A program made the translations under genes and the position numbers. Below, piece by piece: positions 25,403 through 49,943 of a stretch of 64,000 nucleotides of DNA; position 1 is the stretch's first letter; each line of letters starts with the position of its first letter. This stretch comes from Desulfoscipio sp. XC116 (GTDB taxonomy: Bacteria; Bacillota; Desulfotomaculia; Desulfotomaculales; Desulfallaceae), in assembly GCF_039851975.1 (NCBI RefSeq), contig NZ_CP156660.1, positions 4,097,035 to 4,161,034 on the forward strand, in the 5' to 3' direction. The notes under the pieces were generated by a model. That model had not been told where the DNA came from and searched no databases. It worked only from the letters and a program-made list of their open reading frames with translations.

Positions 25403-25406
25403 ATAA

Positions 25407-26661: not shown

Positions 26662-26726
26662 CATGGTTATTCGTGATGGTTATTTATGATGGTTATTCGT
26701 GGTTCTTATTCATGATTCTTATTTGA
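26662..26726. repeat. Five 13-bp tandem repeats at the 3' end of marR
   Basis: Units read approximately CATGGTTATTCGT, GATGGTTATTTAT, GATGGTTATTCGT, GGTTCTTATTCAT and GATTCTTATTTGA. They cover the last codons of the MarR gene and the gap before the adaptor gene. Slippage here would alter only the MarR tail (RIMNKNHE) and the intercistronic distance. Confidence 0.8.
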
Positions 26727-27547: not shown

Positions 27548-29983
27548 TTATAATTTAATTTCAATTTCGTAAATCATATTCCATATCGTATATATGGAAA
27601 CCCTATAGCCACTCTTCAGATTGCTCATAGCTAAAGATTTTCCGCTGCTGTTATGGATATATGCATTACTATTCAGACTGTATCTTTCCCAACTGCTTCC
27701 TTTCACCAGGTAGACGCTTTCATCATCGCTTTCGACACTAAAGGCCAGCTTGCTGGACACTTCCTCCATAACCCTGAACATATATCCGCCGTCTTTATTT
27801 TCTATAACCTCCACCCGGTCGCCAACGGCCAGAGCACCTAGCGAGGAGTATGTTTTACCGTCGTTATTTATCGCGCTGCCGTTACTAAAGGAAAGCGTAG
27901 TGGTTTTGCCATTGAATAATTCCAGGCTCACCTTGCCGCCGTTCATATCAAGGAAAGTAACCCGCCCGTACAGCGGGCTAAGCACCTCCACTGATTTCAA
28001 ATCGTCGCCGCTGAAAACAGCCCGCAGAAGATCGCCTTCATTAATATCATCCACATCGGGATAAGTTACTCCCGGCATAATCAGATCCACTCCGGCTTTT
28101 ATATAGAGCCGGTCGCTGTCTTCATCGTCATCAACCACATCCACCCGGTCTACGGAGTCCCTAACTGTATCAACCCTGTAAATAACCGTACTGCGCAGGT
28201 CAATTTCCATCACTTTATCGCCCGATAACACCAGGTAGGCATATTCGCCTCTTCTAATCTCGTCCACATCATCCCGATTATCTTTACTATTCACGTCGGC
28301 ACTCTTAGCTATAAAGTAAGTTTTTCTTTCGCCGTTATCCCTTTGGAGTTCCAGGATCAAACTGTCGGCGTCAATGCTGGTAATTATGCCGCCCACCTTA
28401 TTATCGGTTTCCAGGTATATAATATCTCCGTCCAGCAGACGAATTTTTACATCCATATCCTGCTGTAAATCCTTTAAGTCCGCATCGTCGTCATCATCTA
28501 CAATAATGCGCGCGTTGCTTAAAACATCATATACAATTAGCGTCCCGTTGCGGTCTTTTAAGGTAATCCGGTCATTAAGCGTGTCCACAGCCATTACCGT
28601 CGCGGTAAGATCATCATCAACCCGGCGGCCGGTAACAGACAAGGATGTCACTTCACCATTATTGATGACCGCCGATACCGTATCCCCCTCCCGCACATCG
28701 GAAATATATGCACTGGTCATACCGGAAATGCTCACCCGCACATTGGCGGGCAAACTATATACATACAGCTTGCCGTTTACTTCAAGGTTAATAAAGTTAT
28801 TAGCGGTATTAAGAGTAATTACTTTACCTGTTACGGATAAGTTTGAGGCAATCTCCAAAATCTCTATGCCGATAACTTCGTCGTCTTCAATGGTAACCTT
28901 AACCTGGTCGCCTTTAATAATGTCTTCCAAGGTAGGCAATCTGACCCCTTGAGCCGTCACATTGACGTAATTGCTCAACCGGTAAGGCTGCAGCCGATTA
29001 TCGCCTAATTGAAGGGTTAGGAACCTGTTTTCCAGGTCCAGGTCGTATACAACGCCTTCTGTTCCCAAGCTGCCGCTCCGTGATTTGACGTTAATGCTCA
29101 TAACATAGCCCTGAGCATCCAAGCCAACATTTACTTCATCTCCCGGCTGCAGAGCATTTAAGCCCTGGCTGCTGGAACCCGCGACAGAAACGGAAGCATT
29201 ATTCGGCAGGTATAAGGTTTTTAGATTGCCCCCCGCCTCTTCCACAACAAATGCGCTGATTTCCGGGTATACCTTCACTATCAGACCGTTGACCGTACCG
29301 GAAACTTGCTGCACGGAGCCGCCGGCGTTTACGCCGGTGTTTGTATTAGTGCCTGCGTCAGGCAATTCGCCGGATGCGCGGCTTAAGAATGAAACCATTT
29401 CCGCCCGGGTGACTTTACGATCGGGCTGAAATGAATTATCAGGATAGCCCGCTATAAGATCATTGTCCTGGGCCACCCTTACGTAGTAAATCGCCCAATC
29501 CGGTATTTTGTGAATATCGGTAAACACGGGCATTAATAATTCTTCCTCGGCCTGGGCTTCTTTACCGATCATCCGCACCAGCAGCCTGGCCACCCAGGCT
29601 CTGTCGGCGTCGCCATAAGCACTGAACTGGTCCGTGTTTTTTATTAAACCATGCTGCAAAGCAAGCCTAATATCGTTTTCCGCATATTCGGGCACCGGGA
29701 AGTTAACCTGAGGCAGTGATCCGGTTGAAGAGGCCTGCAGATTCATTGCCCTAACAGCCATACATACTGCTTCGACCTGGCTAACAGATTTGTTGGGCTT
29801 GAAGGTTCCATCGGTATAACCGCCTATAACCCCCCTGTCCGACATGGTGCTAATTATATTCGCAGCCCAATGGTCGGCCTTTACATCGGAAAAACCGGCC
29901 AATGCCACGCCGCCGCCGGCAATAGACAGCAGCAAGGCCAACGATAAAATCCATAATCCCCTTCGCGGGCTTCGCTTCCTCAT
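27548..29983 (-). CDS. SLH-domain surface protein with repeated beta domains
   Basis: About 811 residues. A signal peptide (MRKRSPRRGLWILSLALLLS..ALA) is followed by three SLH modules: FSDVKADHWAANIIS..GGYTDGTFKPNKSVSQVE, a weaker second, and IPDWAIYYVRVAQDNDLIAGYPDNSFQPDRKVTRAE. These bind pyruvylated wall polymer. The rest is a chain of about eight degenerate 60-70-residue beta modules with repeated GDxV, DLENRFLTLQL and VxVD patterns. It is a wall-attached structural protein, possibly an S-layer component. Start: the upstream GTG overlaps the GGGGGAG ribosome site, so ATG 29983 is preferred. Function beyond wall binding is unknown. Confidence 0.85.
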   Translation of the reverse strand: MRKRSPRRGLWILSLALLLSIAGGGVALAGFSDVKADHWAANIISTMSDRGVIGGYTDGTFKPNKSVSQVEAVCMAVRAMNLQASSTGSLPQVNFPVPEYAENDIRLALQHGLIKNTDQFSAYGDADRAWVARLLVRMIGKEAQAEEELLMPVFTDIHKIPDWAIYYVRVAQDNDLIAGYPDNSFQPDRKVTRAEMVSFLSRASGELPDAGTNTNTGVNAGGSVQQVSGTVNGLIVKVYPEISAFVVEEAGGNLKTLYLPNNASVSVAGSSSQGLNALQPGDEVNVGLDAQGYVMSINVKSRSGSLGTEGVVYDLDLENRFLTLQLGDNRLQPYRLSNYVNVTAQGVRLPTLEDIIKGDQVKVTIEDDEVIGIEILEIASNLSVTGKVITLNTANNFINLEVNGKLYVYSLPANVRVSISGMTSAYISDVREGDTVSAVINNGEVTSLSVTGRRVDDDLTATVMAVDTLNDRITLKDRNGTLIVYDVLSNARIIVDDDDDADLKDLQQDMDVKIRLLDGDIIYLETDNKVGGIITSIDADSLILELQRDNGERKTYFIAKSADVNSKDNRDDVDEIRRGEYAYLVLSGDKVMEIDLRSTVIYRVDTVRDSVDRVDVVDDDEDSDRLYIKAGVDLIMPGVTYPDVDDINEGDLLRAVFSGDDLKSVEVLSPLYGRVTFLDMNGGKVSLELFNGKTTTLSFSNGSAINNDGKTYSSLGALAVGDRVEVIENKDGGYMFRVMEEVSSKLAFSVESDDESVYLVKGSSWERYSLNSNAYIHNSSGKSLAMSNLKSGYRVSIYTIWNMIYEIEIKL

Positions 29984-30208
29984 AATAAAATTCACTCCCC
30001 CGGCATTTTTCTCCTTAATTACTTAATTGAACTTTAATTGCCTGTTTTAACTTCGACACGCATAGCGCCAAGTCCTGTCAAACAAGGAGAAAAAACTAAA
30101 ATCAATTGCAGTGGGGTCAGGCCCTTTGAATGAGAACAGCATAGCTAAACTATGGCGCAAAGGCCGGGCAAATTACATAACCATTTTAAAGCCACTTCAA
30201 GTATTCTT

Positions 30209-31325: not shown

Positions 31326-32297
31326 TTAAATCACCTTTCCCACGGCGTCCAATATAATACTCTGTGCTTCTTCAACCGAACCGGCGGCAAATAATTCCGT
31401 TAAGATGCGATCAAGCAAATCCCTATCAGTTAAATGCCGCACCTTTGCCCGAATGCCGCCCGGTTCCACCTTAAACCTGGTTACCATATATATGCAGATA
31501 GCGTCTTGCTTTGCTTTTACTTCTCCAATATTTTCACCTTCCATCCTGCCTTCTTTTATACCTTCCATCCTGCCCTTTTCGTGCCAGTTGGTGGTAATTT
31601 GCATAATCGTAACGGCCTCCTTTCTATCTATTTTATCCAACTCCCGGTTAAACAGCTCTTCTTCTTCACGGTTTAGCTTCAGGTAGGTTTCAAAAAACCC
31701 GCCTAATAGCTCCATGCGCGCCGAGTCTAACTTCATCCGAGCCAGCATGCGCATAAATTCCACCTTGACGCGAACCTTTTCCTCCGCCTTAAATCCCATC
31801 TTGCTCAATAGCGCCGCAGCTACCGGATTGTTGCTGTGGATGTAATTTCGCCAGTTAAGCTTCTTTAATTCCAGCTTGTAAAACTGAAAACGCAGAACGT
31901 CCAGAAAGGAAAATCTCTGTTCAAAAGTGTCCGGCTCATCCCGGTCCTGATCATAGCTAAATACGGCTACGGGAAGTATCTTGCGCCGGTACTTCTCGTA
32001 AAGACGACTAAAATAAACAAACATCCGCGCGTGAAAGTCCCTTTGCACATATGCCTGGGGTTCGACGTGGATTAATATCAGTCCCGGTTCGTTTTTGAGA
32101 CGGGTTTCCACCAGGATATCTACTTCATGCCTGTCTCCGACCGTAACGTCGGTGAAAACCTCCTGCTGCAAGAATTTAATCTCTTTTAAGTCTATGGCTT
32201 GGGCGGCGGCGGGGAAAAAAAGCTGCATGAATTCGGCAAAAAAGGTTTCTAAAAGCTCTTTAAACAGGCGATCATGGTCGATATGGTTTGCACTCAT
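31326..32297 (-). CDS. Rpn/PDDEXK-family putative transposase-nuclease, copy A
   Basis: A 323-aa member of the Rpn family (PD-(D/E)XK nuclease family transposase, PF12784 type). The N-terminal half is FKELLETFFAEFMQLFFP, then HEVDILVET with D60 and VEPQ with E79-x-Q81 as the nuclease core, and FHARMFVYFSRLYEKY. The C-terminal half is helical with a Gly/Glu-rich stretch (GRMEGIKEGRMEGENIGE). Family members promote recA-independent recombination by DNA cleavage. Protein is identical to the copy at 33560-34531. Pyrimidine-rich ribosome site GGAGCCGCG precedes the ATG. Confidence 0.85.
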   Translation of the reverse strand: MSANHIDHDRLFKELLETFFAEFMQLFFPAAAQAIDLKEIKFLQQEVFTDVTVGDRHEVDILVETRLKNEPGLILIHVEPQAYVQRDFHARMFVYFSRLYEKYRRKILPVAVFSYDQDRDEPDTFEQRFSFLDVLRFQFYKLELKKLNWRNYIHSNNPVAAALLSKMGFKAEEKVRVKVEFMRMLARMKLDSARMELLGGFFETYLKLNREEEELFNRELDKIDRKEAVTIMQITTNWHEKGRMEGIKEGRMEGENIGEVKAKQDAICIYMVTRFKVEPGGIRAKVRHLTDRDLLDRILTELFAAGSVEEAQSIILDAVGKVI

Positions 32298-33559: not shown

Positions 33560-34531
33560 TTAAATCACCTTTCCCACGGCGTCCAATATAATACTCTGTG
33601 CTTCTTCAACCGAACCGGCGGCAAATAATTCCGTTAAGATGCGATCAAGCAAATCCCTATCAGTTAAATGCCGCACCTTTGCCCGAATGCCGCCCGGTTC
33701 CACCTTAAACCTGGTTACCATATATATGCAGATAGCGTCTTGCTTTGCTTTTACTTCTCCAATATTTTCACCTTCCATCCTGCCTTCTTTTATACCTTCC
33801 ATCCTGCCCTTTTCGTGCCAGTTGGTGGTAATTTGCATAATCGTAACGGCCTCCTTTCTATCTATTTTATCCAACTCCCGGTTAAACAGCTCTTCTTCTT
33901 CACGGTTTAGCTTCAGGTAGGTTTCAAAAAACCCGCCTAATAGCTCCATGCGCGCCGAGTCTAACTTCATCCGAGCCAGCATGCGCATAAATTCCACCTT
34001 GACGCGAACCTTTTCCTCCGCCTTAAATCCCATCTTGCTCAATAGCGCCGCAGCTACCGGATTGTTGCTGTGGATGTAATTTCGCCAGTTAAGCTTCTTT
34101 AATTCCAGCTTGTAAAACTGAAAACGCAGAACGTCCAGAAAGGAAAATCTCTGTTCAAAAGTGTCCGGCTCATCCCGGTCCTGATCATAGCTAAATACGG
34201 CTACGGGAAGTATCTTGCGCCGGTACTTCTCGTAAAGACGACTAAAATAAACAAACATCCGCGCGTGAAAGTCCCTTTGCACATATGCCTGGGGTTCGAC
34301 GTGGATTAATATCAGTCCCGGTTCGTTTTTGAGACGGGTTTCCACCAGGATATCTACTTCATGCCTGTCTCCGACCGTAACGTCGGTGAAAACCTCCTGC
34401 TGCAAGAATTTAATCTCTTTTAAGTCTATGGCTTGGGCGGCGGCGGGGAAAAAAAGCTGCATGAATTCGGCAAAAAAGGTTTCTAAAAGCTCTTTAAACA
34501 GGCGATCATGGTCGATATGGTTTGCACTCAT
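33560..34531 (-). CDS. Rpn/PDDEXK-family putative transposase-nuclease, copy B
   Basis: Same 323-aa protein as at 31326-32297, with the D60 and E79-x-Q81 nuclease core intact. Two identical, apparently functional copies in direct orientation around a toxin-antitoxin pair could recombine and excise the middle. Whether the Rpn nuclease itself mobilises this unit or was passively duplicated cannot be told from the sequence. I saw no terminal inverted repeats or target-site duplication. Confidence 0.85.
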   Translation of the reverse strand: MSANHIDHDRLFKELLETFFAEFMQLFFPAAAQAIDLKEIKFLQQEVFTDVTVGDRHEVDILVETRLKNEPGLILIHVEPQAYVQRDFHARMFVYFSRLYEKYRRKILPVAVFSYDQDRDEPDTFEQRFSFLDVLRFQFYKLELKKLNWRNYIHSNNPVAAALLSKMGFKAEEKVRVKVEFMRMLARMKLDSARMELLGGFFETYLKLNREEEELFNRELDKIDRKEAVTIMQITTNWHEKGRMEGIKEGRMEGENIGEVKAKQDAICIYMVTRFKVEPGGIRAKVRHLTDRDLLDRILTELFAAGSVEEAQSIILDAVGKVI

Positions 34532-35304: not shown

Positions 35305-36429
35305 TTAACTTACAAAGGCTAACCATGGCTTTTCAAAGTTTATCTTACTTAAACCATAGTTAATTTTAATATCCAGCAGGGCACTCTCAGCTTGGGCAAC
35401 GGCCAATTGGCTGTTAACAACATCGTCTTTGGTTATCATACCGTTGTCATATAAAGCTTGGGCGTTTTTTTGATTCAGCTCGGCTGCGGTTAGTGCTTCC
35501 TGAGCCGATACATATGAAGCTTCAAGGGTTTTCAAGGTTTCGTTCAATTCATTCATTTTGTTGCGCGTCTCAACCCGGGCTTCATCGTAAGTTAAACTGG
35601 CCTTATCGATATCGATTTTACCGGCTTCCTCAGGCTGAGTGGATGTCCAGGTGTATTTCTGCAGCTCATAGCCTTCCTTTTTGCTCCATAAATATGGGTT
35701 CTGAGTAGGGTTCATGGCTTTTATTATCGCTGCATCGAGCGATGGTATCTCCATTTTTTCAAACTCTATCGATGTTGCCAATTGAGGTCTGAAATTATTA
35801 TCTTTGCCCATCATTTTATTCAATGTCCGGTAAGCGTTTTCCAAGTTGGATTGGGCGGATTCCAGCGTACTTTTAGCGCCTTCAAGTTCCGCATTTTTAG
35901 CTTGTATCGTTGTTTCAGTGGCCATGCCGACTTGCTTTTGCATCTTAGCTACTTTATAACCACGCTCGGCTACTTCCAATGCTAACTTAGCCGTTTCTAT
36001 ATCGTTTATCTTTTTCAGAATATCGTAATAACCTTGTGTAACCTGCATACGTATGGCATCCTGAGTTATTTCAAAAGATTTCTTTTGAATATGCGCGGCA
36101 CGGTCTGCGCTTAAGGCTTGAAAGAGCGAGTTGTCATCCATACCGGGTGCGGTCATGTACGCTTGTTGCGTATCTACCCATGTTTTGCTCATCATGTAAC
36201 CGTGGTTATCCCAAGCATTGTCACGGACCTCTTCAGCACGATCGACATCAAGTTCCGCCTGCTGAATGTTATAACTGTTCTTAAGCGCGTTATTTATCGC
36301 TTCTTCCAAGGAAAGCTCCACATAATCCTGGCCTGGCAGGTTCTGTTCTTCTTCCGAGGCAAATGATACAAAGGCAAAACCAAAAGTCATGGCTAATGTT
36401 ATCAGTAGGGTAACTACAACCCGCCGCAA
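35305..36429 (-). CDS. TolC-family outer-channel-like protein
   Basis: A secreted, coiled-coil-rich protein of about 374 residues. Signal peptide RRVVVTLLITLAMTFGFAFVSFA, then LSLEEAINNALKNSYNIQQAELDVDRAEE, the typical TolC/OEP opening, repeated near 300-360 (ALTAAELNQKNAQALYDNGMI). In Gram-negatives TolC is the exit duct for RND pumps; here it may pair with the AcrAB-like proteins at 22271-26579. Its length is short against E. coli TolC. Start: AAAGGAG is 9 nt from TTG 36429 and too close to ATG 36435, so TTG is chosen. A strong sigma-A promoter is just upstream. Part of it (36096-36196) has a diverged copy at 33355. Confidence 0.85.
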   Translation of the reverse strand: MRRVVVTLLITLAMTFGFAFVSFASEEEQNLPGQDYVELSLEEAINNALKNSYNIQQAELDVDRAEEVRDNAWDNHGYMMSKTWVDTQQAYMTAPGMDDNSLFQALSADRAAHIQKKSFEITQDAIRMQVTQGYYDILKKINDIETAKLALEVAERGYKVAKMQKQVGMATETTIQAKNAELEGAKSTLESAQSNLENAYRTLNKMMGKDNNFRPQLATSIEFEKMEIPSLDAAIIKAMNPTQNPYLWSKKEGYELQKYTWTSTQPEEAGKIDIDKASLTYDEARVETRNKMNELNETLKTLEASYVSAQEALTAAELNQKNAQALYDNGMITKDDVVNSQLAVAQAESALLDIKINYGLSKINFEKPWLAFVS

Positions 36430-36470
36430 TGTCATCAACTCCTTTAATCAATAAATTATTTACCTATTTA

Positions 36471-36759: not shown

Positions 36760-38961
36760 TTACTTATTGAAATTAAATGTTGCAGTCTTGGTGGCGTCAT
36801 CCCATTCGAGTTCGCCGCCAAAGGCCATTTGAATGCCGCGCAGGGAAGCGTAGGTGTAATTGTCAATGATCTTGCCGCCCTGGTCTACAGCAATCTTGGT
36901 GCCATTGATGTAGACAGCATTTTCGCCCATCGGGAATGCAACAACTTTGCCGTTCTGTACGAAGTATGCAGTCTTGGTAGCTTCGTCCCAGCTCTTTTGC
37001 AGGCCGAGCACGTCGCACAGAGTGTTTACTTGTACCAGAGTGCGGCCGTTGATCACTGCCACGCCTTCGTCACCAACCTTGAAGGTGGCGGTTACCAGAT
37101 CGTCGCTACCGCAAGTAGCGTTGGCTACAGTGGCGATAACGCCGGTGTCGTCATAATCATCAATCTTGTCGGAAATGCTAGTAGGAACTTTATAAGTATT
37201 ATCATCACTTTCGTTAATAAGAACATCCGGGTCAATAATGTAAGCTTTTACTTCTACATCGCCGTTCAAAGCAAGTCTTCCGGTATCATAGTTGATGTTG
37301 GTAATCTTGAATTCGCTGGGATCGGAGCTTTCATCGGTTACTTCCAGCGCAATCATGCTGTCGTCGATAACGGTGATGTCGCCGTCAAAGTTGCCGCTTA
37401 CTACATCCAGCTTGGGCTTGCCGTTCAGCTCAATACCGGAAGGAATCTCGAACACAAGCACGCTGCCCTCTTGCAGAGCGCCGTCAGCAGCCTCGTTGAC
37501 AGTGATGTCGCCGGCCGCCTGGTTAAGGGCTTCGGTCATAATCGGATTTTTATCGGCTTTCAAGGTGAAGGGGGCAGCTGCCACGCCGATGGTAGCTTCA
37601 TCAAGGTCGCCGTAGTCACCACTGATAGTTAAAGTGATGTCGCCGGGTTCAGTATCGTTATCCAACTGAATATAGAAATTATCCACGGTGAAGTCGCTGC
37701 CAGCTTTGTCATTAAAACTTACATAGAAAGCTTTTTCACTGTCATATAACTCAATTTCGCAATTATTATTGTCAATATTGAGTTCATCCGTCTTAACAAA
37801 CTTACCTTTGTTAAGTTCAAAGGTCATCATATCGCCGTCTTTGAAGTCGTTGCCATCTTCGGTTTCAATCTTCATTGAAACATCTAATTCAGTTATCTGG
37901 CCACTGTAGGCAACAGTGTCATTGTCTTCCAGCTTGTCAATTTTCGCTTTGGCATCGCCAACGGTCGCCACCGTCACAGTAGTCTTACTGATGGTGTTAG
38001 TGCTATGCCCATCTTTGTCTTCGCTGCTTACGCGAATTTTCACGTCGCCGGTTACCTTAGGATCTACTTTAAAATACGGAGTAAATACAATATCCCCGGG
38101 GAAGATACTGGATTTTTCGTTAACCTTTAACGTGACTTGCTCGTGGTCATCGTCGTAATCAAGGTCATTCACGCCACTTTTGAAACTTACAGCTTGAATA
38201 CTATCTTTATCTTTAATTGTGCTTTCATCAAAAGTCACGCCACTGGTTAAGATATCATAGACTACATACTCTTGTTCCTTATTATTTAGTGATCCGGGCT
38301 TAGTTTCATAAACCTTGATTTCTGCGCCTTTCTTACCACTGCCTTTGCTGACGATTTTAGGAGACTTGGCAGATACCATAACATCTTCGGAACCTGCTAC
38401 TTTAGCAATGGTTACGTCATCGGATTCGGTCCAAGCAATCGAGTCACCTTTAAGACCCCAAACCTCAATGGTTGCATCTACATTACCGGTAAAGTCAGAA
38501 TCAATGTCTAGGGGCATAAGTTGATCTTCAAAATTGAAATTAACGCTAAAATTCTTCCAAGCAGTGTCACTTATATATTCTCCTTTTAAAGTTATACTTG
38601 AAGAATTAGCCTTAACAAAGTAATTACCGCTACCCAATGGCTTTAATCCACTTGTATTTACTTCTGCAAATTTATTTGCAGCAACATTCTCTGCCTTAGG
38701 CGTCTTACTGAATTCAACGCCATCGGGCAATGTTAATTTGGCCTGTATATAGGTAACACCAGCCACAGAAAAGTCGCCATCATATTCTACGGTGGCTGTA
38801 CCTGCATCTACGTCGTCATCAGCGGTAACATAAGTGTAAGTACTTCTGTACTTCGTATAATCATTATCCGCCGCGAAGGCTCCCATCGGGGCAATTACCG
38901 TGAATAAAAATACCAGAGCAATTGCCAATGAAACTGTTCTCTTTGTTTTAGGTTTCAACAA
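36760..38961 (-). CDS. S-layer-like surface protein with C-terminal copper-amine-oxidase-type (stalk) domain
   Basis: A 733-aa secreted protein. Signal peptide LKPKTKRTVSLAIALVFLFTVIAPMGAFA, then about 580 acidic residues of beta-sandwich-like modules (VTLKVNEKSSIFPGDIVFTP, FTLKADKNPIMTEALN). The last ~110 residues form a copper-amine-oxidase N-terminal-like domain (INGRTLVQVNTLCDVLGLQKSW, VYINGTKIAVDQ), common at the ends of Desulfotomaculum surface proteins. No SLH domain. TTG start (a second TTG follows) with GGAGGG at 9 nt. It has its own terminator, a ~350-nt leader and an ECF-type promoter shared head-to-head with the sigma operon, so it is likely abundant and stress-regulated. A major S-layer role is inference. 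Confidence 0.8.
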   Translation of the reverse strand: MLKPKTKRTVSLAIALVFLFTVIAPMGAFAADNDYTKYRSTYTYVTADDDVDAGTATVEYDGDFSVAGVTYIQAKLTLPDGVEFSKTPKAENVAANKFAEVNTSGLKPLGSGNYFVKANSSSITLKGEYISDTAWKNFSVNFNFEDQLMPLDIDSDFTGNVDATIEVWGLKGDSIAWTESDDVTIAKVAGSEDVMVSAKSPKIVSKGSGKKGAEIKVYETKPGSLNNKEQEYVVYDILTSGVTFDESTIKDKDSIQAVSFKSGVNDLDYDDDHEQVTLKVNEKSSIFPGDIVFTPYFKVDPKVTGDVKIRVSSEDKDGHSTNTISKTTVTVATVGDAKAKIDKLEDNDTVAYSGQITELDVSMKIETEDGNDFKDGDMMTFELNKGKFVKTDELNIDNNNCEIELYDSEKAFYVSFNDKAGSDFTVDNFYIQLDNDTEPGDITLTISGDYGDLDEATIGVAAAPFTLKADKNPIMTEALNQAAGDITVNEAADGALQEGSVLVFEIPSGIELNGKPKLDVVSGNFDGDITVIDDSMIALEVTDESSDPSEFKITNINYDTGRLALNGDVEVKAYIIDPDVLINESDDNTYKVPTSISDKIDDYDDTGVIATVANATCGSDDLVTATFKVGDEGVAVINGRTLVQVNTLCDVLGLQKSWDEATKTAYFVQNGKVVAFPMGENAVYINGTKIAVDQGGKIIDNYTYASLRGIQMAFGGELEWDDATKTATFNFNK

Positions 38962-39313
38962 AACCGTTTCCCTCCTTGAATTGTGTTTCTTTTTTTGGGC
39001 ACGTGCCAGTTAATAGTTTAATCAACCGGCTACTCAATATGATGTTGCACATCCCTCCCTTGGTTGGTTCAAAGATTTGCCATGGGTGCCGTTCGCGCTG
39101 ATTGCGGCGGCACTTTTCTTACCCTGTTATCTGGCGGGGAGCCGGAGCCCGTTAACTTTCGGACTTCTCCCCATTTGCGGGTAAGACCGACAGGGAATGC
39201 ATATTCTACATTCTCCGCCAGTTTTCCTGCTTGCTGAGCAAAATTATGCAGTTGTGCATCGGCAAGGTTATGCAGTTTATGTTTTACTAATTTGGCTGCC
39301 CTGTCCTTGCCAT
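38962..39313 (-). promoter_or_regulatory. Long structured 5' leader of the surface-protein mRNA
   Basis: The predicted start site near 39313 leaves about 350 nt before the TTG. On the minus strand it can fold: CTGGCGG/CCGCCAG, CCCTGT/ACAGGG, GGGGAG/CTCCCC enclosing GTCCG/CGGGC, and GTGCCG/CGGCAC. The first two pairs interleave and would form a pseudoknot. I do not recognise a known riboswitch. One frame stays open for about 81 codons but has no ATG, GTG or TTG before its first 50 codons. Long leaders stabilise mRNAs of other S-layer genes. Confidence 0.45.
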
Positions 39314-39321
39314 CTGATTAG

Positions 39322-39350
39322 TTAGACACGGTGCTTTCGAAAAAAGTTCC
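39322..39350 (-). promoter_or_regulatory. ECF-type promoter towards the surface-protein gene
   Basis: GGAACTTT (39343-39350), a 15-bp spacer, GTCTAA (39322-39327). GGAAC / GTC boxes are typical of ECF sigma factors. Boxes and spacing are identical to the plus-strand site at 39471-39499 that precedes the sigma-factor gene. Confidence 0.75.
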
Positions 39351-39470
39351 GCAAATCCATATTTTTTTTAGAGGCTAATTTTTAACCATTTGAAACATGG
39401 GGCGTTTTAAAGTAGAATTGATGAAGAAAAAGATTCCCCCGAATATTTTTAGAAAATTTCACTCCCAACC

Positions 39471-39499
39471 GGAACTTTACGGCAATTTTTGTTGTCTAA
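39471..39499 (+). promoter_or_regulatory. ECF-type autoregulatory promoter of the sigma/anti-sigma operon
   Basis: GGAACTTT (39471-39478), a 15-bp spacer, GTCTAA (39494-39499), about 40 bp before the sigma-factor start codon. It matches the divergent site at 39322-39350 in both boxes and spacing, while the spacers differ in sequence. Confidence 0.78.
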
Positions 39500-39538
39500 A
39501 AGGTAACCGGAGCGGAGAGTCGGAAGGAATGTCTCCCC

Positions 39539-40141
39539 TTGGACGAAGCCGTTAAACTACTGGTTGACAAATCAAAACAGGGCCACAACGAGGCGTTCGA
39601 ACAGCTTATTAAAATATACCAGAACAAGGTTTACGCACTTTGTTATCAACTGACCAACAATCAATCCGACGCCCAGGATCTTGCTCAGGAGGCTTTTGTA
39701 AAAGCATACAGATCACTATCCGGTTTTCGCAGCGAAGCAGATTTCGGAACCTGGATACACCGGATAACCGTTAATCTCTGGATAAATACCAAACGGCGCC
39801 AAAGGCCGGAAGTTTCTCTGGATGCCACTTTAACCACCGACAAGGGCGAAATGACTTTTGATGTTCCGTCAGATGAGGAAACACCTGAAGAAACTCTGGA
39901 ACGCAAAGAGTTTAATTCGCTGGTAAAAATGGCTCTCAATGATTTATCCGAGGAACACAGGACTGTTTTATTATTGAGGGAAATGCAGGGTTACAATTAC
40001 GATGAAATTGCGCAAATAACGAACTGCTCGCTAGGCACGGTTAAATCCAGGATAAACAGGGCGCGTTTAAATCTTAAGCAAAAAATTCTACAGCAAGCCC
40101 GGGCCCGTGATATAAAGTTGCCTTATGGAAACAAGCATTGA
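39539..40141 (+). CDS. ECF-family RNA polymerase sigma factor (SigW-like)
   Basis: A 200-aa ECF sigma factor. Region 2 spans about 10-80 (YALCYQLTNNQSDAQDLAQEAFVKAYRSL, then FGTWIHRITVNLW), and region 4 about 128-185 (LNDLSEEHRTVLLLREMQGYNYDEIA, GTVKSRINRAR). It directs RNA polymerase to GGAAC/GTC-type promoters. Start is TTG 39539 with GGAAGGAA about 10 nt before; the nearby ATG at 39529 is out of frame. The zinc-finger anti-sigma gene follows 20 bp downstream, so release by envelope stress is the expected control. The same promoter type upstream predicts autoregulation. Confidence 0.93.
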   Translation: MDEAVKLLVDKSKQGHNEAFEQLIKIYQNKVYALCYQLTNNQSDAQDLAQEAFVKAYRSLSGFRSEADFGTWIHRITVNLWINTKRRQRPEVSLDATLTTDKGEMTFDVPSDEETPEETLERKEFNSLVKMALNDLSEEHRTVLLLREMQGYNYDEIAQITNCSLGTVKSRINRARLNLKQKILQQARARDIKLPYGNKH

Positions 40142-40161: not shown

Positions 40162-41316
40162 ATGAAATGCAACAATTACATGCATGACTTAATTTCTGCC
40201 TGGCTGGACGGCGAGTTGGATCGCGGCGAGGCCGAGAAGGTGGAGAAGCATCTGGGCGAGTGCGCCGCCTGCCGGGAGCATCTGGCGATTTTGCGGGAAA
40301 TCCAAACCGAACTGCGCGCTTGCGCGATGGAAATGTCCGCGCCCGAAGGGCTGTCTGCCGCGGTTATGGCACGTATTGCCGAACCGGAAGCGGGATTGCC
40401 GCGCTCCGCTCGCAATGACAATAATGAGGGATCGACGCGCTTCGCTGCCGGCAATGACGGTAAGGGCGGCTTGTGGCGATGGAGAAGTGTTGCGGCCAGC
40501 TGGAAACGCGGTATTGCCGCGGCGGCTGCCACTATTCTGGTTGCCGGTGCAAGCTATGCCATGGTCACACAAGCAAATCTGGTTACCAGGGTACAGATGG
40601 CTGATAATAACAAAGTTCAGCTGGAGGAAATTAATTCAGATAATAATGGTACTAAAATAGCGGCAAATAATCACGGAGACAACCTCGGACAAATACCGGA
40701 GACCAATAATGGCGCTACCGGCGGCACGGATAATAATAAGGGCAACTCCGATACCCCAAACAATCAGGGCGAAAATGATGTTAAAAATACTCCGTCTGAA
40801 ACAACCGTGAATAACACTCCACAAACACCCAAACCACCGGCTGATATCCGGCAAACCCCGGAGATGGTCGCTTTGCTTAGCGTTGATAAGGAACGGATTA
40901 TCAGAAGCACCCTGATCAAGGCCAGGGTTGAGGAGCCCGATACAGCGCGGGAACGGGTAAACTCACTGGCAGAGAAGTATAAAGCAAGCATCAGGCAAAC
41001 GGGGTCGCAGAATACCGCCGAGGGATCTCTCACAGGATATGAAATGACGATTGACCGGGATAAAGCCGGCAATTTGGTAAATGATCTTAAGACTGTCGGC
41101 ACTGTGATTAATAAGGATGAAAGCAGCAAGAATATCGGCGATCAATATAACAAGCAGGTGGAACAATATCAATCTCTGGCCGCTCAGCTAAAGAGCAGTG
41201 ACGATGCCGCAAAACAGGAAGAATTGACCTCAAAAATGAATGCCATTGAGCAGCAGCTGAAAACCTGGGAAAGTGACACCGGCAAGCAGACCATTGTTAT
41301 TTGGCTGGAGAATTAA
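40162..41316 (+). CDS. Membrane-anchored zinc-finger anti-sigma factor with extracellular DUF4349-like domain
   Basis: A 384-aa protein. Residues 1-70 are a ZAS anti-sigma domain (H30-x3-C34-x2-C37 with the preceding LISAWLDGEL). Residues 117-136 form one membrane helix (GIAAAAATILVAGASYAMV). About 140-235 is Asn/Thr/Pro-rich and disordered. The final 150 residues are DUF4349-like (VEEPDTARERVNSLAEKYKAS, IGDQYNKQVEQYQSLAAQLK). It would hold the upstream ECF sigma factor at the membrane and sense envelope state outside. Odd feature: residues about 78-101, between the zinc domain and the helix, are encoded by two halves of the REP-like repeat (GLPRSARNDNN, RFAAGNDG). Confidence 0.9.
   Translation: MKCNNYMHDLISAWLDGELDRGEAEKVEKHLGECAACREHLAILREIQTELRACAMEMSAPEGLSAAVMARIAEPEAGLPRSARNDNNEGSTRFAAGNDGKGGLWRWRSVAASWKRGIAAAAATILVAGASYAMVTQANLVTRVQMADNNKVQLEEINSDNNGTKIAANNHGDNLGQIPETNNGATGGTDNNKGNSDTPNNQGENDVKNTPSETTVNNTPQTPKPPADIRQTPEMVALLSVDKERIIRSTLIKARVEEPDTARERVNSLAEKYKASIRQTGSQNTAEGSLTGYEMTIDRDKAGNLVNDLKTVGTVINKDESSKNIGDQYNKQVEQYQSLAAQLKSSDDAAKQEELTSKMNAIEQQLKTWESDTGKQTIVIWLEN
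40393..40460. repeat. REP-like repeat inserted in frame in the anti-sigma gene
   Basis: GGATTGCCGCGCTCCGCTCG and CAATGACAATAATGAGGGATCG followed by CGCGCTTCGCTGCCGGCAATGACGG are two arms of the dispersed family. The reading frame passes through both without a stop and adds about 25 residues to the cytoplasmic linker. Confidence 0.75.
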
Positions 41317-42294: not shown

Positions 42295-45200
42295 TCACTC
42301 CCGCAATTGCCTGCTTACCCGGTACAGCAGCCGGTTTAACACCGCCGCTGTTTCCGCGCGGGTAATGTTCGCCTGCGGTGCAAACTTGCCGTCCGTCCTG
42401 CCACCCAGCAGGCCTGCCTGCCCGGCAGCATTTACGCTGGTGCGCGCCCAATCGGGTATGCTTTGCGCATCGCCATATTCGGGGGGCGGCTCCTTTTCAT
42501 CCGATGCGACATTCAGAACTTGAGCCAACCGAACAAACATAACCGCCGCTTCCGCCCTGTTAAGCAGTGCCCGGGGGCGGAACGTGTTGTCCTCGTAGCC
42601 CGTAACCAGGCCCCGGCCATTGGCCACCCGTACGGAGCTTATTGCCCATTCCGGTATCTCAGCGTTATCTTCATAGCCAAGCTGCGGCATGTCGTTATTG
42701 TGCCCCCCCAGCAGCCGGCTCAGCATAACGGTAAACTCAGCTCTTGATATGGGCCGATCGGGCCGGAAGCTGTTATCGCCATAGCCCTCAAGCATGTTCC
42801 TGGAAGCCAGACCCAATATATCTATCTCGGCCCAATGCCCGGTTACGTCGTTAAAAAACATGCCCTGGTGGTCCGGCAGCTTAACCCGCACCCCGGTGAC
42901 AGCACCGGTTTTTTCGTCAACCGCCACCAGCTGCACCCCGCCCCCGTTGGGGTAATAGACAGGGTAATAAAACTCGCCGTTTGTTAACGTTACCGCTTCC
43001 GATCCGCCGTCCGCGCGCCAGGCTATCAGCCTGGAGGCCGATGTTTTCCCTTTGACAATGCAAAATTCTTCAAACGGAATGGTTGATTCAACCAGCAGGC
43101 TCAAATCAGCGGCTTCCGGAGGACTGTGGGCTTCTATTAAAGCAAGCGTCCGGGGATTATCATCCCGCCCGTGCAAGGCAACCAGGTCAACCTCTTCCCC
43201 CGGCAGCAAGTCCACGGCTTGCACCGGATAACCATTTTTGCTTATTGACGTTTTGGCAGTAATGATATAGCGATGACCGGATTTTGTAATAAGCAGATTG
43301 TCCTTCCGGTTATAAGACCCGACAACCTCCCGGCCCTGGAACTCGGTTTCCGCAATGTCAACCCTTAGAAGAATACCGTTTTGGGGATTGATTATCAGCC
43401 GGGCCCACTGGCCCGGCGCCAGCAGCGCGGTATCCGAAGCCAGGCCCCAGCGGTAAACCAGGGTATCCCGGGTAAACTTGTATTCCCGGTTCAGCAGATT
43501 GTTGTCGGTAATATATAATGTATTTTGGCCCGCAAAATATACGCGCCCGTATATACAAGTTGAGTAGGCCGAAAGTGTAAGCGCATTGTTGCCGCCCGGA
43601 ACAATTACCCCCATAACCAAATCACCCGGCTGCAGCGCCGAAAGCGGGACTTCCTGATTATCCCGCACAAGTTTTATCCCCGGTAATACCCGATATTCTC
43701 CACCGGTTGTTAAAGAAAATTTCCCGTCCTTATCGTTAACAGCACTGATATTGCCTAAGATAACCCGGCGTTCAACCTCCATATGATAAACCAAACCGTC
43801 CTGGCCCAATATCAGGCGGACAGGCATGCCCGGCACAATGTTAGTCTTGTCTCCAGGTACGGGAGCACCGAAAGGAGCTGATTCGGGATCGCCACCGGCG
43901 ATTTGATCGTTAAAGATTACGTTCAGTTCGGAAGCAACAGTAAACTGTTCTTTATAATTCAGTAATTCCAGTTGCCGGTTATCCCAATCCAGACTTTTTA
44001 CAACTCCTTCCACTTCCTGGCTCGATGCCCGCACCTGCCACAACTTTTGAGTGGTGGGGTTTATCGATGATTCAATACTTGCGCCCGGCGGTATGCCAAC
44101 GCCGCTGGACAGTTTAATTCCGTTGAGCTTGATAGTGTTTTGAGCATGTTCATCGATATAATACCCCCCCTCCCTATAATCGCTGTTGATTCTAACCATT
44201 ATTGTGCCCACATCGGAGGAAAGCGCCTTAATCCCGGACGCCTGCCAGCTCCGGCCAACCGCAAGAGCAGTCTCCGGTGTCTCGGACAAGCCGCTCAGGT
44301 AAATATCGGAACCGGGAAGAATGTCCCCGGACACAATTTTACCGTTTAAGGCGGTCTTTATATTTTCCGGCTTATCTATTGTTTTGCCGGAGGTCAATTT
44401 TAATTTGTCTTTTTCATCTTGGGCGACAACGTCTTGCAAAGGCGGCTGCCCGTACGCCAGAGCAAAATCCTGTTTATCCATGTTTAAAACTGTTGAAGCC
44501 TTGGCATCAACCGATGTTCCATGCACTTCTATTTTATATTTTCCGGGTGCGGGTTTATTGATAATTACTTGTTCAACGTTGTTCTTATCATCCTGGTCCC
44601 CGCGCCCGCTGCTGTCATTGCCCAAATATTTTTTGCCGTCCGGGCCGGTTACGACCAGATCCAAATTATTAACCAGTGTTTTTTTGGCGCCCGGCATCGC
44701 CGGGGGGTCTGTCCAGGCCAGGGTTGCCTTAAACGGAGTTGCAGAGGATTCAATATTAAATTCACTGGTTTTCGTATCCCCTTCAGCAATCCCGCTTCGG
44801 TCGTCCTCCAACTCGAAAAGTCCTTGCTGCAGCGCCAGCACGGTTCCCGCCATATCCAACAGACCAAAGCCGACTCTCTGCACATCACCTTCCAGAGATC
44901 GGGCGCCATTGATTAACACTGCCTTGAACAAAGCCGCCGATGGCTCATCAAAGTCCGTGTAACGCTGAAAATATTCGGCCAACAATATTGCATTGCCCCC
45001 TGCCACAGCCGTGGCCATACTGGTTCCCTGCATCCTGGTGTATTCTTCCCGATTGGGCAGGTTGCTTTCCACCAGGCTGGAGCAGGCGGAAATAATGGAA
45101 GTTCCCGGGGCCAGCAGCTCGGGCTTGATTCTGCCGTCAGCAGTTGGACCGCCGCTGGAAAACTCGGCCGCCTGGAATGTACTGCCGGTGTCATTATCAA

Positions 45201-46422
45201 AAACCGGCCTGGGACTGCGGGAGGCGCCGATCACCAGCGCATTTTTACTGTTGGCTTCGGCTGTCAGAGTGCCGGCGCTCGGTCCGAAATTGCCCGACCC
45301 GAAAATCGGCAGAAAATCAGCATGCCGGCGCACAAATTCGTCCACCTGGCTGGAGGAGCTGATATATTGATTGTTTTTGCTCCCCCAGCCGTTGACATGG
45401 ATACGCACCCCTGCATCATAGGCAGGCATAAAAAGCCTATTCAGGTCATGAGGGGGGATTATAGCGCCGTTGGCGTCCACTATACCCTGGAAGTATATGC
45501 TTGCATCCGGAGCTATACCGGCGTATTTGCCGCCGGAAGCCGCTCCGCTGCCTGCAATGGTGCCCGCCATATGTGTACCGTGCCCAATTTTGTCCACGGG
45601 TTGCTCGACACCCGCCAGAGAGTTAATCATCAGCACCCGCGGTCTTTTACCGTTATCGTTGCGCAGGTCGGGGTGCAGGGTACCTAATTTACCGGTATCA
45701 AGACCACTGTCGGCCAATCCGACAATTGTATTTTTCCCTGTAAGCCCGCCCGGTGTAAAAAAATTAGGTATTGACAGCGGAGCAGCCCCGGTGACATCCC
45801 TAGCCCGATCATTTAAAAACTCCGGCTGACTATATTGCTCTATATATAGTACCTGTGAAGAAGCCGCCGCCTGCTCAAGGTTAGTGAATGGAAGCCGCAC
45901 TCTAAGGTAGCAATCAGCTGTATCTTTACCGTTTGTGGTCACACCGCCAAGCTGCTCGACCAGTTCAACGACATATGGTTTATCTTCCGCTTTAACCAGG
46001 GTAAGTGTTAATTCAATTTGTTTTTCGTTCGGTGACTGTACACTGTCGGTTGGATTTTTTTCGGCACTGTCTTTTAATTCCCCGGTCATCTTTTCTTCCG
46101 GCTGATATGTATTGATTTTCTGGATATATGGCAGTTCTTTGAGTTTATCTAAATTTTTCGCACCGGTGCGCACCAGTATGGAATCGCCGTCAAGCCGCCC
46201 CATCCAGTCGACTTTCCGGGCCAATTCATCACTTTCGCTGCTGCTGAGCGGGCGTTCCAGCTGTATGTTATACAATTCCAATGTTTCATCGACAACTGCA
46301 CCGTTCTTTTCTTCCACATCATCGGAGTTCGGATTAACATCAGACGACCAGTTGATTAATAAAAAAGCTATCACGGCCAGCGCCACAAGCACTAGCGCCT
46401 TTTTGGGATTTATCGTAAACAC
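42295..46422 (-). CDS. S8 subtilisin-like serine protease with C-terminal SLH domains
   Basis: About 1375 residues. A single N-terminal membrane segment (ALVLVALAVIAFLLI), a prodomain-like region, then the subtilase fold with D238 (GLADSGLD), H284 (GHGTHMAG), the oxyanion asparagine 378 (FGSGNFG) and S468 (GTSMATAVAGG). About 700-1190 are beta domains; the last ~190 residues are three SLH modules (DVTGHWAEIDILGLA.. GYGDNSFRPDRPISRAE). It is a wall-bound protease, perhaps processing surface proteins or nutrients. Start: the longer frame begins inside a REP-like repeat, so GTG 46422 after AAGGGGGG is preferred; an ATA 9 bp further in is also possible. Confidence 0.9.
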   Translation of the reverse strand: MFTINPKKALVLVALAVIAFLLINWSSDVNPNSDDVEEKNGAVVDETLELYNIQLERPLSSSESDELARKVDWMGRLDGDSILVRTGAKNLDKLKELPYIQKINTYQPEEKMTGELKDSAEKNPTDSVQSPNEKQIELTLTLVKAEDKPYVVELVEQLGGVTTNGKDTADCYLRVRLPFTNLEQAAASSQVLYIEQYSQPEFLNDRARDVTGAAPLSIPNFFTPGGLTGKNTIVGLADSGLDTGKLGTLHPDLRNDNGKRPRVLMINSLAGVEQPVDKIGHGTHMAGTIAGSGAASGGKYAGIAPDASIYFQGIVDANGAIIPPHDLNRLFMPAYDAGVRIHVNGWGSKNNQYISSSSQVDEFVRRHADFLPIFGSGNFGPSAGTLTAEANSKNALVIGASRSPRPVFDNDTGSTFQAAEFSSGGPTADGRIKPELLAPGTSIISACSSLVESNLPNREEYTRMQGTSMATAVAGGNAILLAEYFQRYTDFDEPSAALFKAVLINGARSLEGDVQRVGFGLLDMAGTVLALQQGLFELEDDRSGIAEGDTKTSEFNIESSATPFKATLAWTDPPAMPGAKKTLVNNLDLVVTGPDGKKYLGNDSSGRGDQDDKNNVEQVIINKPAPGKYKIEVHGTSVDAKASTVLNMDKQDFALAYGQPPLQDVVAQDEKDKLKLTSGKTIDKPENIKTALNGKIVSGDILPGSDIYLSGLSETPETALAVGRSWQASGIKALSSDVGTIMVRINSDYREGGYYIDEHAQNTIKLNGIKLSSGVGIPPGASIESSINPTTQKLWQVRASSQEVEGVVKSLDWDNRQLELLNYKEQFTVASELNVIFNDQIAGGDPESAPFGAPVPGDKTNIVPGMPVRLILGQDGLVYHMEVERRVILGNISAVNDKDGKFSLTTGGEYRVLPGIKLVRDNQEVPLSALQPGDLVMGVIVPGGNNALTLSAYSTCIYGRVYFAGQNTLYITDNNLLNREYKFTRDTLVYRWGLASDTALLAPGQWARLIINPQNGILLRVDIAETEFQGREVVGSYNRKDNLLITKSGHRYIITAKTSISKNGYPVQAVDLLPGEEVDLVALHGRDDNPRTLALIEAHSPPEAADLSLLVESTIPFEEFCIVKGKTSASRLIAWRADGGSEAVTLTNGEFYYPVYYPNGGGVQLVAVDEKTGAVTGVRVKLPDHQGMFFNDVTGHWAEIDILGLASRNMLEGYGDNSFRPDRPISRAEFTVMLSRLLGGHNNDMPQLGYEDNAEIPEWAISSVRVANGRGLVTGYEDNTFRPRALLNRAEAAVMFVRLAQVLNVASDEKEPPPEYGDAQSIPDWARTSVNAAGQAGLLGGRTDGKFAPQANITRAETAAVLNRLLYRVSRQLRE

Positions 46423-46452
46423 CCCCCCCTTACCAAGCACAAAAGAAAAACT

Positions 46453-46490
46453 TGAGATTGCCACGTCGTTTCGCTCCTCGTAGCGACGGA
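46453..46490. repeat. REP-like repeat upstream of the protease gene
   Basis: GAGATTGCCACGTCGTTTCG followed by CTCCTCGTAGCGACGG, one degenerate arm. A further pair of arms lies at 46620-46690 (CTGTCATTGCAAAAAGCC.. and CATTGCGAGGAGCTTGCG). The 334-bp gap between the stalk/PKD gene and the protease holds nothing else that I recognise. Confidence 0.75.
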
Positions 46491-46756: not shown

Positions 46757-48469
46757 TTAAAATGGAATGCATAATATATTTACAGGCAGATACGATCCGC
46801 CCGGCGGAATGAACTGCAGCACTTTCTGCTGCCCCGGTTCGATAATGCCGATGAGAGCGGCTTCTTCTTTTGTTTTCATTACCCCGTCATCGGGTATATA
46901 AAATGGCTTGCCATCCCAACTGCCCGCCCCGGCAAAGGCGCCGCCCCTGGGGTTCAGCAATAGACCAACCCTGTGATCGGACTCTATGACAAAATTGTAG
47001 ACCACTCCATAGTTACCGACATTTCTTGTGTAAACTACACTTCGGCCGCTGGTTATATCCTTGCCGTAAAGGAATGTATCATCTTTTCCGTCCGCAATGA
47101 CCAGCCTGGAGGGCTTGTCGTCAATTATCCGCACCGTCATATTGCGGCTGGGCAATTCAAAGGTGCCCCTGGTATGGGTTTCCTCGCGCGGAAGCATAAT
47201 TAATTGATCAAAGTCATTTATAGGGTCTTGTTTTCCTACGGCAATGATCGCAAAAGTTAAGCAGCTGTCCGAACTGACATCAAAAATGCCGTGCACGGTC
47301 TGATTGGGCTTGATTGGACTATTGTTATCCTTGTTAATGATAATTTTTTCACCCGGCTGCACGTCCAGGGAATATGGTTTGGATTGATCATAGGCCAAGA
47401 AATTATAGGCAGCCAATCGGCCCACTCGCATAGGATCGGACGGTCCCGCCATACCCTGCCTTTTCACCGTTAACGTGGCGGGCTCGGAACCATTATTGAT
47501 CGCCAATAAATAAACCTTTTTAGGTTGGCTTGTGCCGTTGGCGTGGTGGTACAGAATACGGTTGTCGCCAATAACTTCATCCTGGTACAAGATCCCGTCT
47601 CTTTTAAAGGTTTCCGGGCAATCGCTGATGATAACACTTTCTTTGCGCTGAGTGACAATTCCATCTAATGTATCCAGGCTTAGTACGGGTATCTTCGTAA
47701 CATCCAAAGATTTGCCCAAGACGGGGTTATTGAAATGGTAGGTCAATTCATCCATGGCCACTTCTTCGGTTACCTCTATTACTTGGGAAAAGGGTTCACT
47801 CCACGCACCGCGTTTATCCTTGACCGTAAGGGATATTTCATATTCACCCGGCTGGAAAAACGCGTTTTCCCCGCCTTCCCATTTTCTTTCCATAATTTCA
47901 TCGCCATCGGGGTCATAGCTTTCATCTTCATATACTATCATTTCGCCCTGGGCAAAGGTTTCCTTTGCCAGCTTGAACGAGGCAACAGGGGGCTGATTGG
48001 GAGGCGGTAATTTTTCAATCCGGATTTCCTTTGTGCTTGTGTTATAGTTAACCTGATAATTCATATTTTGCGCTAAAAACCGCAGCGGAACCAAAGCACT
48101 GCCGTCCTGTATCAATGTCGGAGCGTCAATAGCGGTTGAAGTATTATCAATAAAAGCTTTACTGATACGGGTATCAATTTGTATTGTCTGACCGTCGTCC
48201 AATTTCAGTCTGATAATACCTGTATAACTTTCCCAGGATATATCCGCTCCAAAAATTTCAGAAATTACGCGCAGAGGGACCATAGTCACACCCTCATGGA
48301 CAGATGGCGCCACTTGCATACTACAGGCCGCTTCATCGACGTAATAGTTTTTTTGTCCCAATGTCATAACCACACTGGTTGCTTCCGAATCGGCAAAAGC
48401 AACACCGGGGAAGCTAATGGCCAAAACCCAAATTAATGCCCAATTTGACCACCTTTTAAAAATATTCAC
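46757..48469 (-). CDS. Secreted copper-amine-oxidase-type stalk domain protein with PKD-like domain
   Basis: A 570-aa exported protein. Signal peptide (KRWSNWALIWVLAISFPGVAFA), then two halves of a copper-amine-oxidase N-terminal-like stalk domain (about 30-150: GVTMVPLRVISEIFGADISW, SALVPLRFLAQNMNYQVNYN), a PKD-like module (about 160-235: SFKLAKETF.. DESYDPDGDEIMERKWE), and a ~330-residue C-terminal part that I do not recognise. GTG start with GGAGGT at 7 nt. A candidate ECF promoter lies 50-85 bp upstream. Extracellular wall-associated function is likely; substrate unknown. Confidence 0.78.
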   Translation of the reverse strand: MNIFKRWSNWALIWVLAISFPGVAFADSEATSVVMTLGQKNYYVDEAACSMQVAPSVHEGVTMVPLRVISEIFGADISWESYTGIIRLKLDDGQTIQIDTRISKAFIDNTSTAIDAPTLIQDGSALVPLRFLAQNMNYQVNYNTSTKEIRIEKLPPPNQPPVASFKLAKETFAQGEMIVYEDESYDPDGDEIMERKWEGGENAFFQPGEYEISLTVKDKRGAWSEPFSQVIEVTEEVAMDELTYHFNNPVLGKSLDVTKIPVLSLDTLDGIVTQRKESVIISDCPETFKRDGILYQDEVIGDNRILYHHANGTSQPKKVYLLAINNGSEPATLTVKRQGMAGPSDPMRVGRLAAYNFLAYDQSKPYSLDVQPGEKIIINKDNNSPIKPNQTVHGIFDVSSDSCLTFAIIAVGKQDPINDFDQLIMLPREETHTRGTFELPSRNMTVRIIDDKPSRLVIADGKDDTFLYGKDITSGRSVVYTRNVGNYGVVYNFVIESDHRVGLLLNPRGGAFAGAGSWDGKPFYIPDDGVMKTKEEAALIGIIEPGQQKVLQFIPPGGSYLPVNILCIPF

Positions 48470-48887: not shown

Positions 48888-49943
48888 TTAGTATAACTGT
48901 TTAGCATTCGACTTTATGGCTTTGAGCACCACTTTTCTATTCTGCTGTGATTTAAGCACATTCAACATAGTCAAGGCTCGCCCGGTGCCCACGGCCACAC
49001 AGGAGAGAGGATCCTCGGCTATTATAATATTGAGCCCGGTTTCACGCGCGATTAACTTATCAATGTCCTGAAGCAACGCCCCGCCGCCCGTGAGCACGAT
49101 ACCCTTGTCCATTATATCCGCGGCTAACTCCGGTGGAGTTAACTCCAGCACTTCTTTTACGGTATTTACCACCAGCGACAGGTTTTCACTTATAGCATCG
49201 CGTATCTGACAACTGGTTACGGTTATTGCCTTAGGAAGGCCATCCAGCAAATCCCTTCCCCTTACTTGCATATCTACCATTGATGTTTCATCCGGGCAAG
49301 CGTTGGCAATTTCCATTTTAATTTCTTCCCCGGTGCGCTCGCCAATAGCCAGGTTAAATTCCTTGCGTATGTATTTAACAATGGCTTCATCAAACTTATC
49401 ACCGCCCAGCCTGAGCGAGCGGCTGATCACAATGCCCCCCAGGGAAAGCACGGCTACGTCGGTTGTGCCGCCGCCGATATCTACCACCATGGTACCGCCC
49501 GGCTGCGCTATGTCCAGGCCGGCCCCCAATGCGGCGGCCAGTGGTTCCTCAATTAGATAAGACCGTCTTGCACCCGCTTGGATAGTGGCCTGCTTAACGG
49601 CCCGCTCCTCCACCCCGGTGACACCGGAGGGTATGCATACCATAACACGAGGCTTAAATACTAATCTATGGCCGTTAGCTTTGCCAATAAAGTAGCGGAG
49701 CATCTTTTCGGTTACGTCGTAATCGGCGATGACACCATCGCGAAGCGGCCGGATGGCTACTATATTACCCGGGGTTCGGCCCAGCATACGCCTTGCTTTT
49801 GCCCCCACGGCTATCACTTTACCCGTGGAATTGTCTATAGCCACCACCGATGGTTCTTTTAAAACAATACCTCTGCCTTTAACATACACGATTATATTAG
49901 CCGTGCCCAAGTCAATACCAATATCGGCACCCATGTGGAGCAT
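48888..49943 (-). CDS. mbl: Rod-shape determining actin-like protein Mbl
   Basis: A 351-aa MreB-family protein. The actin-type phosphate loops are GADIGIDLGTANIIVYVKGRG near the start and VVDIGGGTTDVAVLSLGGIV at about 158-177. The adenosine motif is GIVLTGGGALLQDID, and EEPLAAALGAG is also present. It forms membrane-bound filaments that guide lateral wall synthesis. Its place directly after spoIIID is the conserved Bacillota arrangement for mbl, and so distinguishes it from mreB, which lies with mreCD. ATG 49943 is preceded by AAAGGGGA at 10 nt. Confidence 0.93.
   Translation of the reverse strand: MLHMGADIGIDLGTANIIVYVKGRGIVLKEPSVVAIDNSTGKVIAVGAKARRMLGRTPGNIVAIRPLRDGVIADYDVTEKMLRYFIGKANGHRLVFKPRVMVCIPSGVTGVEERAVKQATIQAGARRSYLIEEPLAAALGAGLDIAQPGGTMVVDIGGGTTDVAVLSLGGIVISRSLRLGGDKFDEAIVKYIRKEFNLAIGERTGEEIKMEIANACPDETSMVDMQVRGRDLLDGLPKAITVTSCQIRDAISENLSLVVNTVKEVLELTPPELAADIMDKGIVLTGGGALLQDIDKLIARETGLNIIIAEDPLSCVAVGTGRALTMLNVLKSQQNRKVVLKAIKSNAKQLY

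Follow-up and report, generated by a model that had tools for sequence, protein, structure and literature searches.

In the window (the whole analysed stretch of 64,000 nucleotides from Desulfoscipio sp. XC116), a dedicated and autoregulated ECF sigma factor very probably drives its own operon together with the gene of an S-layer-type protein, under a linked anti-sigma factor that probably senses the coat or wall. Two RpoE-type promoters, almost identical to each other, would allow the sigma factor encoded at 39539 to transcribe its own operon and the gene of a 733-aa surface protein, with hardly any further targets. The features concerned are the following:

39471..39499, plus strand: predicted ECF-type promoter facing the sigma/anti-sigma operon (exact match to GGAACTTT-N15-GTCTAA)
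39322..39350, minus strand: predicted ECF-type promoter directed towards the gene of the 733-aa surface protein (exact match to the same motif)
39539..40141, plus strand: ECF sigma factor, 200 aa, with sigma2 and sigma4 domains (Pfam, NCBIfam, PDB relatives SigW and RpoE)
40162..41316, plus strand: membrane anti-sigma factor, 384 aa, with zf-HC2, a transmembrane helix, a disordered linker and an extracellular DUF4349-type domain (Pfam, structure model, RsiW profile)
36760..38961, minus strand: secreted S-layer-type surface protein, 733 aa, with C-terminal PF07833 (Pfam, fold searches, and a structure model in which beta domains follow a signal helix)

The original prediction described one GGAACTTT-N15-GTCTAA on each strand of a 577-bp intergenic region, with identical boxes and N15 spacing but differing spacers. 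Both copies proved to be exact, the region spans 38962-39538, and the pattern of shared boxes and unlike spacers is seen as described; the plus copy faces the sigma operon and the minus copy the surface gene, also as proposed. The two divergent sites lie 120 bp apart. The motif was absent from 100 dinucleotide shuffles of the window, and a scan of the whole genome (4,261,206 bases, spacer 13-17), as the original prediction had suggested, returned two exact sites, both at this locus, with one match for the reversed control pattern (spacer 13-17). At up to two mismatches there were 22 sites in this genome against 46 for the reversed control, i.e., no excess, and therefore no broad regulon is visible. 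One site with a single mismatch (G000:C1:3704787; L063, 1501-1529) lies ~130 nt before the gene of a 424-aa PF07833 protein and is, on its sequence, a suggestive candidate for a third regulon member. The sigma start codon (39539) is 40 nt past the end of the plus motif. We take GTCTAA to be the -10 box of RpoE. The -35 box here is the same as that of E. coli RpoE, GGAACTT, as given in the published description (PMC8103513). A sigma-70-like site (10 of 12 positions, 39390-39418, plus strand; one such site is expected by chance) also faces the sigma gene and could, judged from its sequence, serve as its basal promoter.

The sigma factor possesses PF04542 (residues 23-89) and PF08281 (residues 129-179) as its only Pfam domains, the arrangement of ECF (group IV) sigma factors. 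Another property of this group, an adjacent gene for the cognate anti-sigma factor, is found as well: that of a zf-HC2 membrane protein starts 20 nt downstream. A conserved AAC-type site, a predicted promoter, lies upstream of the sigma gene and may serve autoregulation. Like the B. subtilis SigW/RsiW and the E. coli RpoE/RseA systems, the locus has a two-domain ECF sigma factor adjoining a membrane anti-sigma factor, apparent autoregulation and an RpoE-type -35 box. The closest solved structures to the sigma factor include SigW and RpoE, with SigW the nearest, and the anti-sigma factor is nearest to RsiW. Unlike those systems, however, the sigma factor scores below the NCBIfam equivalog cut-offs that would mark it as an RpoE or SigW ortholog (RpoE, 151.8 of 236.15 bits; SigW, 159 of 209 and 144 of 243.1); its anti-sigma factor carries an extracellular DUF4349-type domain, and the regulon is tiny and aimed at a coat protein. 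A second, paralogous ECF sigma factor (44% identity) is encoded elsewhere in the same genome.

The anti-sigma factor matches the RsiW profile (E 2.8e-14). Among its relatives, zf-HC2 was found in 31 of 35 and DUF4349 in 26 of 35 (Pfam), a single hydrophobic segment is present in 35 of 37, and the Cys-His zinc motif (C3, H30, C34, C37) is invariant in 35 sequences, as in ZAS proteins. Its structure model is confident from ~240 to 384, contains a long helix at 106-144 and is of low confidence at 74-237. A structure search with this model gave no match at E 0.001, the best being RsiW against its N-terminal domain (E 0.014), and our literature search returned no paper pairing DUF4349 with "sigma factor". 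We infer that the anti-sigma factor holds the sigma factor, which it would restrain through its zinc anti-sigma domain. The extracellular domain probably reports the state of the coat or wall and would adjust sigma release accordingly, so that a homeostasis circuit is plausible.

The 733-aa protein is of the secreted, cell-surface type expected of S-layer proteins, having an N-terminal helix, adhesin-like beta domains and PF07833 (residues 636-727, Pfam). In the model (mean pLDDT 79.5), beta domains follow the N-terminal helix throughout; the helix at 5-26 appears to have signal-peptide character, and the aligned ranges of the fold search place approximately four adhesin-type sandwich domains before PF07833. 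Fold searches revealed resemblance to Ig-like and adhesin domains with middling scores, and no S-layer structure was among the matches listed. The SLH anchoring domain is common but not universal in S-layer proteins; the Pfam scan of the 733-aa protein found PF07833 only. Codon bias was considered as a sign of high expression, with a negative outcome, the value for the gene (0.720) being within the background (0.705, sd 0.027, 33 ORFs). The protein is best described as an S-layer-type coat protein, which may form a lattice. For Desulfotomaculum reducens, PF07833 proteins, S-layer proteins and the TolC-family protein Dred_3141 have been reported in one study (PMC4137172), which does not imply orthology to the genes of the window.

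The window encodes another SLH protein (27548-29995, minus strand) and another PF07833 protein (46757-48469, minus strand), as well as a large subtilase with SLH domains (42295-46464, minus strand) and MreB (48888-49943, minus strand); the latter two genes hold their position downstream of the anti-sigma gene in many relatives. Near the surface gene there are genes for an RND transporter, a HlyD-type adaptor, a MarR regulator and a TolC-type outer-membrane efflux protein (22271-27187 and 35305-36438, minus strand). The lineage is usually called Gram-positive, and a TolC-type protein is thus odd there; a TolC-like gene adjoins the surface gene in relatives too. Two 323-aa frames with identical first residues (31326-32297 and 33560-34531, minus strand) are also present, the former matching the YhgA-like putative transposase family.

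The comparison of related species proposed at the outset covered 60 genomes including that of strain XC116 (spacer 15-17; sites classed by script according to the next downstream gene within 520 nt), and the motif was found upstream of both sigma genes and PF07833-type surface genes. It occurs 119 times in 46 of the 60 genomes (reversed pattern, 23 times). Fifty-one sites precede a gene for a PF07833-type surface protein, in 39 genomes, this label being assigned with a profile built from the targets themselves. The sigma gene is the target of 35 sites, the script placing a site before the sigma ortholog in 35 genomes, and both kinds of site are present in 31. The remaining sites precede anti-sigma genes (2), genes for other secreted-looking proteins (12) or other genes (8), or have no gene within 520 nt (11). 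Inspection revealed that two of these 11 are sigma promoters with a mis-called start (G010, G047), that four of the 12 secreted-looking targets are cut surface genes (G009, G015) and that the eight other targets include one SLH-domain protein (G008). Of the 119 sites, about a quarter lack a clear sigma or coat target. In three related genomes (L119, L120, L121) the motif lies inside a predicted frame, far from the next downstream gene and in similar surroundings. The genome of strain XC116 has 26 PF07833 matches, from which we estimate by arithmetic that ~0.15% of random sites would be correctly oriented and no more than 520 nt upstream of such a match, against 51 of 119 found; the motif is thus far commoner before envelope genes than at random, on which the original prediction depended. 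A Pfam scan of 58 targets (51 from the 60 genomes and 7 from named loci) identified PF07833 in 46 and SLH in one; eight of 66 target rows were left out of it, namely anti-sigma hits (L088, L125, L142), L105 and L109, and L167, L171 and L177 (duplicate, similar or cut).

The presence of the motif follows the sigma ortholog. A sigma match at E 1e-30 was obtained in 57 of the 60 genomes, paralogs possibly included; the motif is present in 36 of the 38 genomes with a best match of at least 51% identity and in 10 of the 22 below, a cut-off chosen after seeing the data, with 50, 52 and 55 in agreement. Sigma relatives without an exact site do exist (e.g., G018 and G020, the latter with a one-mismatch site). 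In most members of one family (f1), the surface and sigma genes diverge from each other and the TolC-like gene adjoins the former. Elsewhere the motif stands before surface genes that are separated from the sigma gene by kilobases or lie on different contigs. That it persists despite such separation speaks for a common regulator of the sigma and surface genes. That this regulator is the linked sigma factor, reading both promoters, is what we infer from the sequences. Another sigma factor could do so in its place, e.g., the paralogous ECF sigma factor, leaving the linked one with other targets, and a second ECF sigma factor (about 37-49% identity) is indeed encoded in these genomes; this is improbable, since the sites stand upstream of the linked sigma gene itself across families and accompany its ortholog. 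Even less credible, to the point of being very improbable, is that the repeated boxes bind a conventional regulator and are no promoters at all. Identical boxes with free spacers would suit any bound factor, but the orientation to the start codons is fixed, the 15-base spacer is near-constant, single copies precede unlinked genes, and the -35 box is of the RpoE type.

The distribution of the motif exceeds these genomes. A scan of genome contigs for further loci gave at least 80. Among 29 named loci (at most one mismatch), the sigma-side site is present in 28, and in 18 it is accompanied by a surface-gene site in the same stretch; such pairs can be found in Desulfotruncus arcticus, Desulfoscipio and Pelotomaculum MAGs, Desulfotomaculum copahuensis, Heliorestis, Heliobacterium mobile, two Moorella and Syntrophomonas wolfei subsp. 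methylbutyratica. Across 149 genomes drawn evenly from the phylum, 35 contain the exact motif, with 59 sites against 4 for the control. One genome of this draw, G154, carries six sites; three of these are identical down to the spacer and may belong to a repeat or mobile element.

The genome G067, which we take to be that of S. wolfei Goettingen, links the system to a protein of measured abundance. The motif precedes here an 812-aa frame with a C-terminal PF07833 domain, which is transcribed divergently from the sigma gene. If translation is counted from one internal TTG start of this frame, a protein of 741 aa and 78,098 Da results, exactly the published mass of Swol_0133; the pI is 4.7 as published and 4.96 as computed. 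According to the proteomic study, Swol_0133 (78,098 Da) lacks a valid signal prediction, has a copper-amine-oxidase N-domain at its C terminus, and is the most abundant protein of the membrane fraction and a predicted S-layer protein (PMC3582634). The missing signal prediction is in keeping with a true start upstream of the annotated one. A further study gives NSAF values of 0.026-0.042 under three growth conditions and a predicted cytoplasmic location (PMC4324140); Swol_0133 is also described as the highest-expressed S. wolfei gene in co-cultures. The window protein is like Swol_0133 in its size, acidic pI, secretion, C-terminal PF07833, motif and divergent sigma/anti-sigma operon; it differs in its low identity (~24% for the related L179 protein), and abundance was measured in S. 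wolfei only. Together with the genomes carrying both sites and the unlinked targets, the S. wolfei match supports the earlier view of the sites as ECF promoters that couple the sigma operon to the surface protein.

The same data bear on the conditions under which the sigma factor may act. SigW, RpoE and RsiW belong to known stress systems, and with such relatives the locus might be regarded as an envelope-stress module, in which the sigma factor is normally off and freed by wall damage, the surface protein being made for protection and not as a constitutive coat. This is rather unlikely, as Swol_0133 is reported to be abundant in all three conditions and so highly expressed in co-cultures, and as the regulon seen here is tiny and without the usual repair genes. 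The abundance data from S. wolfei suggest that the sigma factor works during normal growth and is not a stress responder.

The start of the surface gene (38961) is 361 nt past the end of the minus motif, which therefore implies a long leader. Its features are:

38962..39321, minus strand: long 5' leader of the surface gene (folding compared with shuffles; long leaders in relatives)
39050..39061, minus strand: upstream Shine-Dalgarno-like element AAGGGAGGGATG, located in the leader sequence
38970..38977, minus strand: ribosome binding site AAGGAGGG of the surface gene (from the sequence; same position in aligned relatives)

The start codon is TTG (38961-38959, minus strand). The leader (38955-39315) folds better than 100 shuffles (z -3.81); a consensus fold of 15 aligned f1 leaders retains only a four-pair GGCC-type hairpin. 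After removal of 20 of 73 leaders (duplicates, near-duplicates, cut genes, non-coat targets and mis-called starts), AAGGRGG was found inside 33 of 53, in most cases 77-138 nt upstream of the start, against a mean of 5.93 and a maximum of 12 in shuffles. These 33 do not include the window or its two closest relatives, which have GGGAGGGATG instead. Two tandem promoters, 73-146 bp apart, are present in 17 of the 73 leaders, duplicates included. Rfam gave no family at the gathering score in the window and, for the intergenic region, one chance-level lncRNA match (E 0.7) and no known riboswitch. A leader peptide after the upstream element was considered and rejected, as the downstream frames look unconserved by eye in aligned relatives. 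An open frame of ~80 codons without a usual start codon (39057-39317, minus strand) is partly retained, by eye, in two close relatives.

In STAB-SD leaders, reportedly described by Agaisse and Lereclus in 1996, a Shine-Dalgarno sequence stands in the 5' leader at a long distance from the start. The surface gene of the window likewise has a Shine-Dalgarno-like element far upstream of its start; unlike STAB-SD leaders, those of this surface-gene family have a small hairpin after the element. The leader thus resembles STAB-SD, with a putative mRNA-stabilising role, and by this analogy the upstream element probably helps mRNA stability or ribosome loading.

A surface coat can make up 10% or more of the protein of a bacterial cell, and how its synthesis is kept in step with growth is an open question. 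In titles and abstract openings, mostly outside the subscription literature, we recognised no report of an ECF sigma factor controlling an S-layer gene in this group. That a private, growth-active ECF sigma factor serves the most abundant coat protein across a broad range of anaerobic Firmicutes, in a loop closed by the anti-sigma factor and with a leader-stabilised mRNA, is a tentative generalisation that we regard as possible but somewhat doubtful in its full extent. One sigma/anti-sigma pair, which recurs from Desulfotruncus through to Moorella and Syntrophomonas, speaks for a single point of control, and the promoter provides a sequence tag for the likely coat gene where coat proteins have diverged beyond recognition by similarity. 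The system suggests an ECF sigma factor in the service of ordinary growth rather than stress, and that in some bacteria a private transcription switch may govern one of the most abundant proteins.
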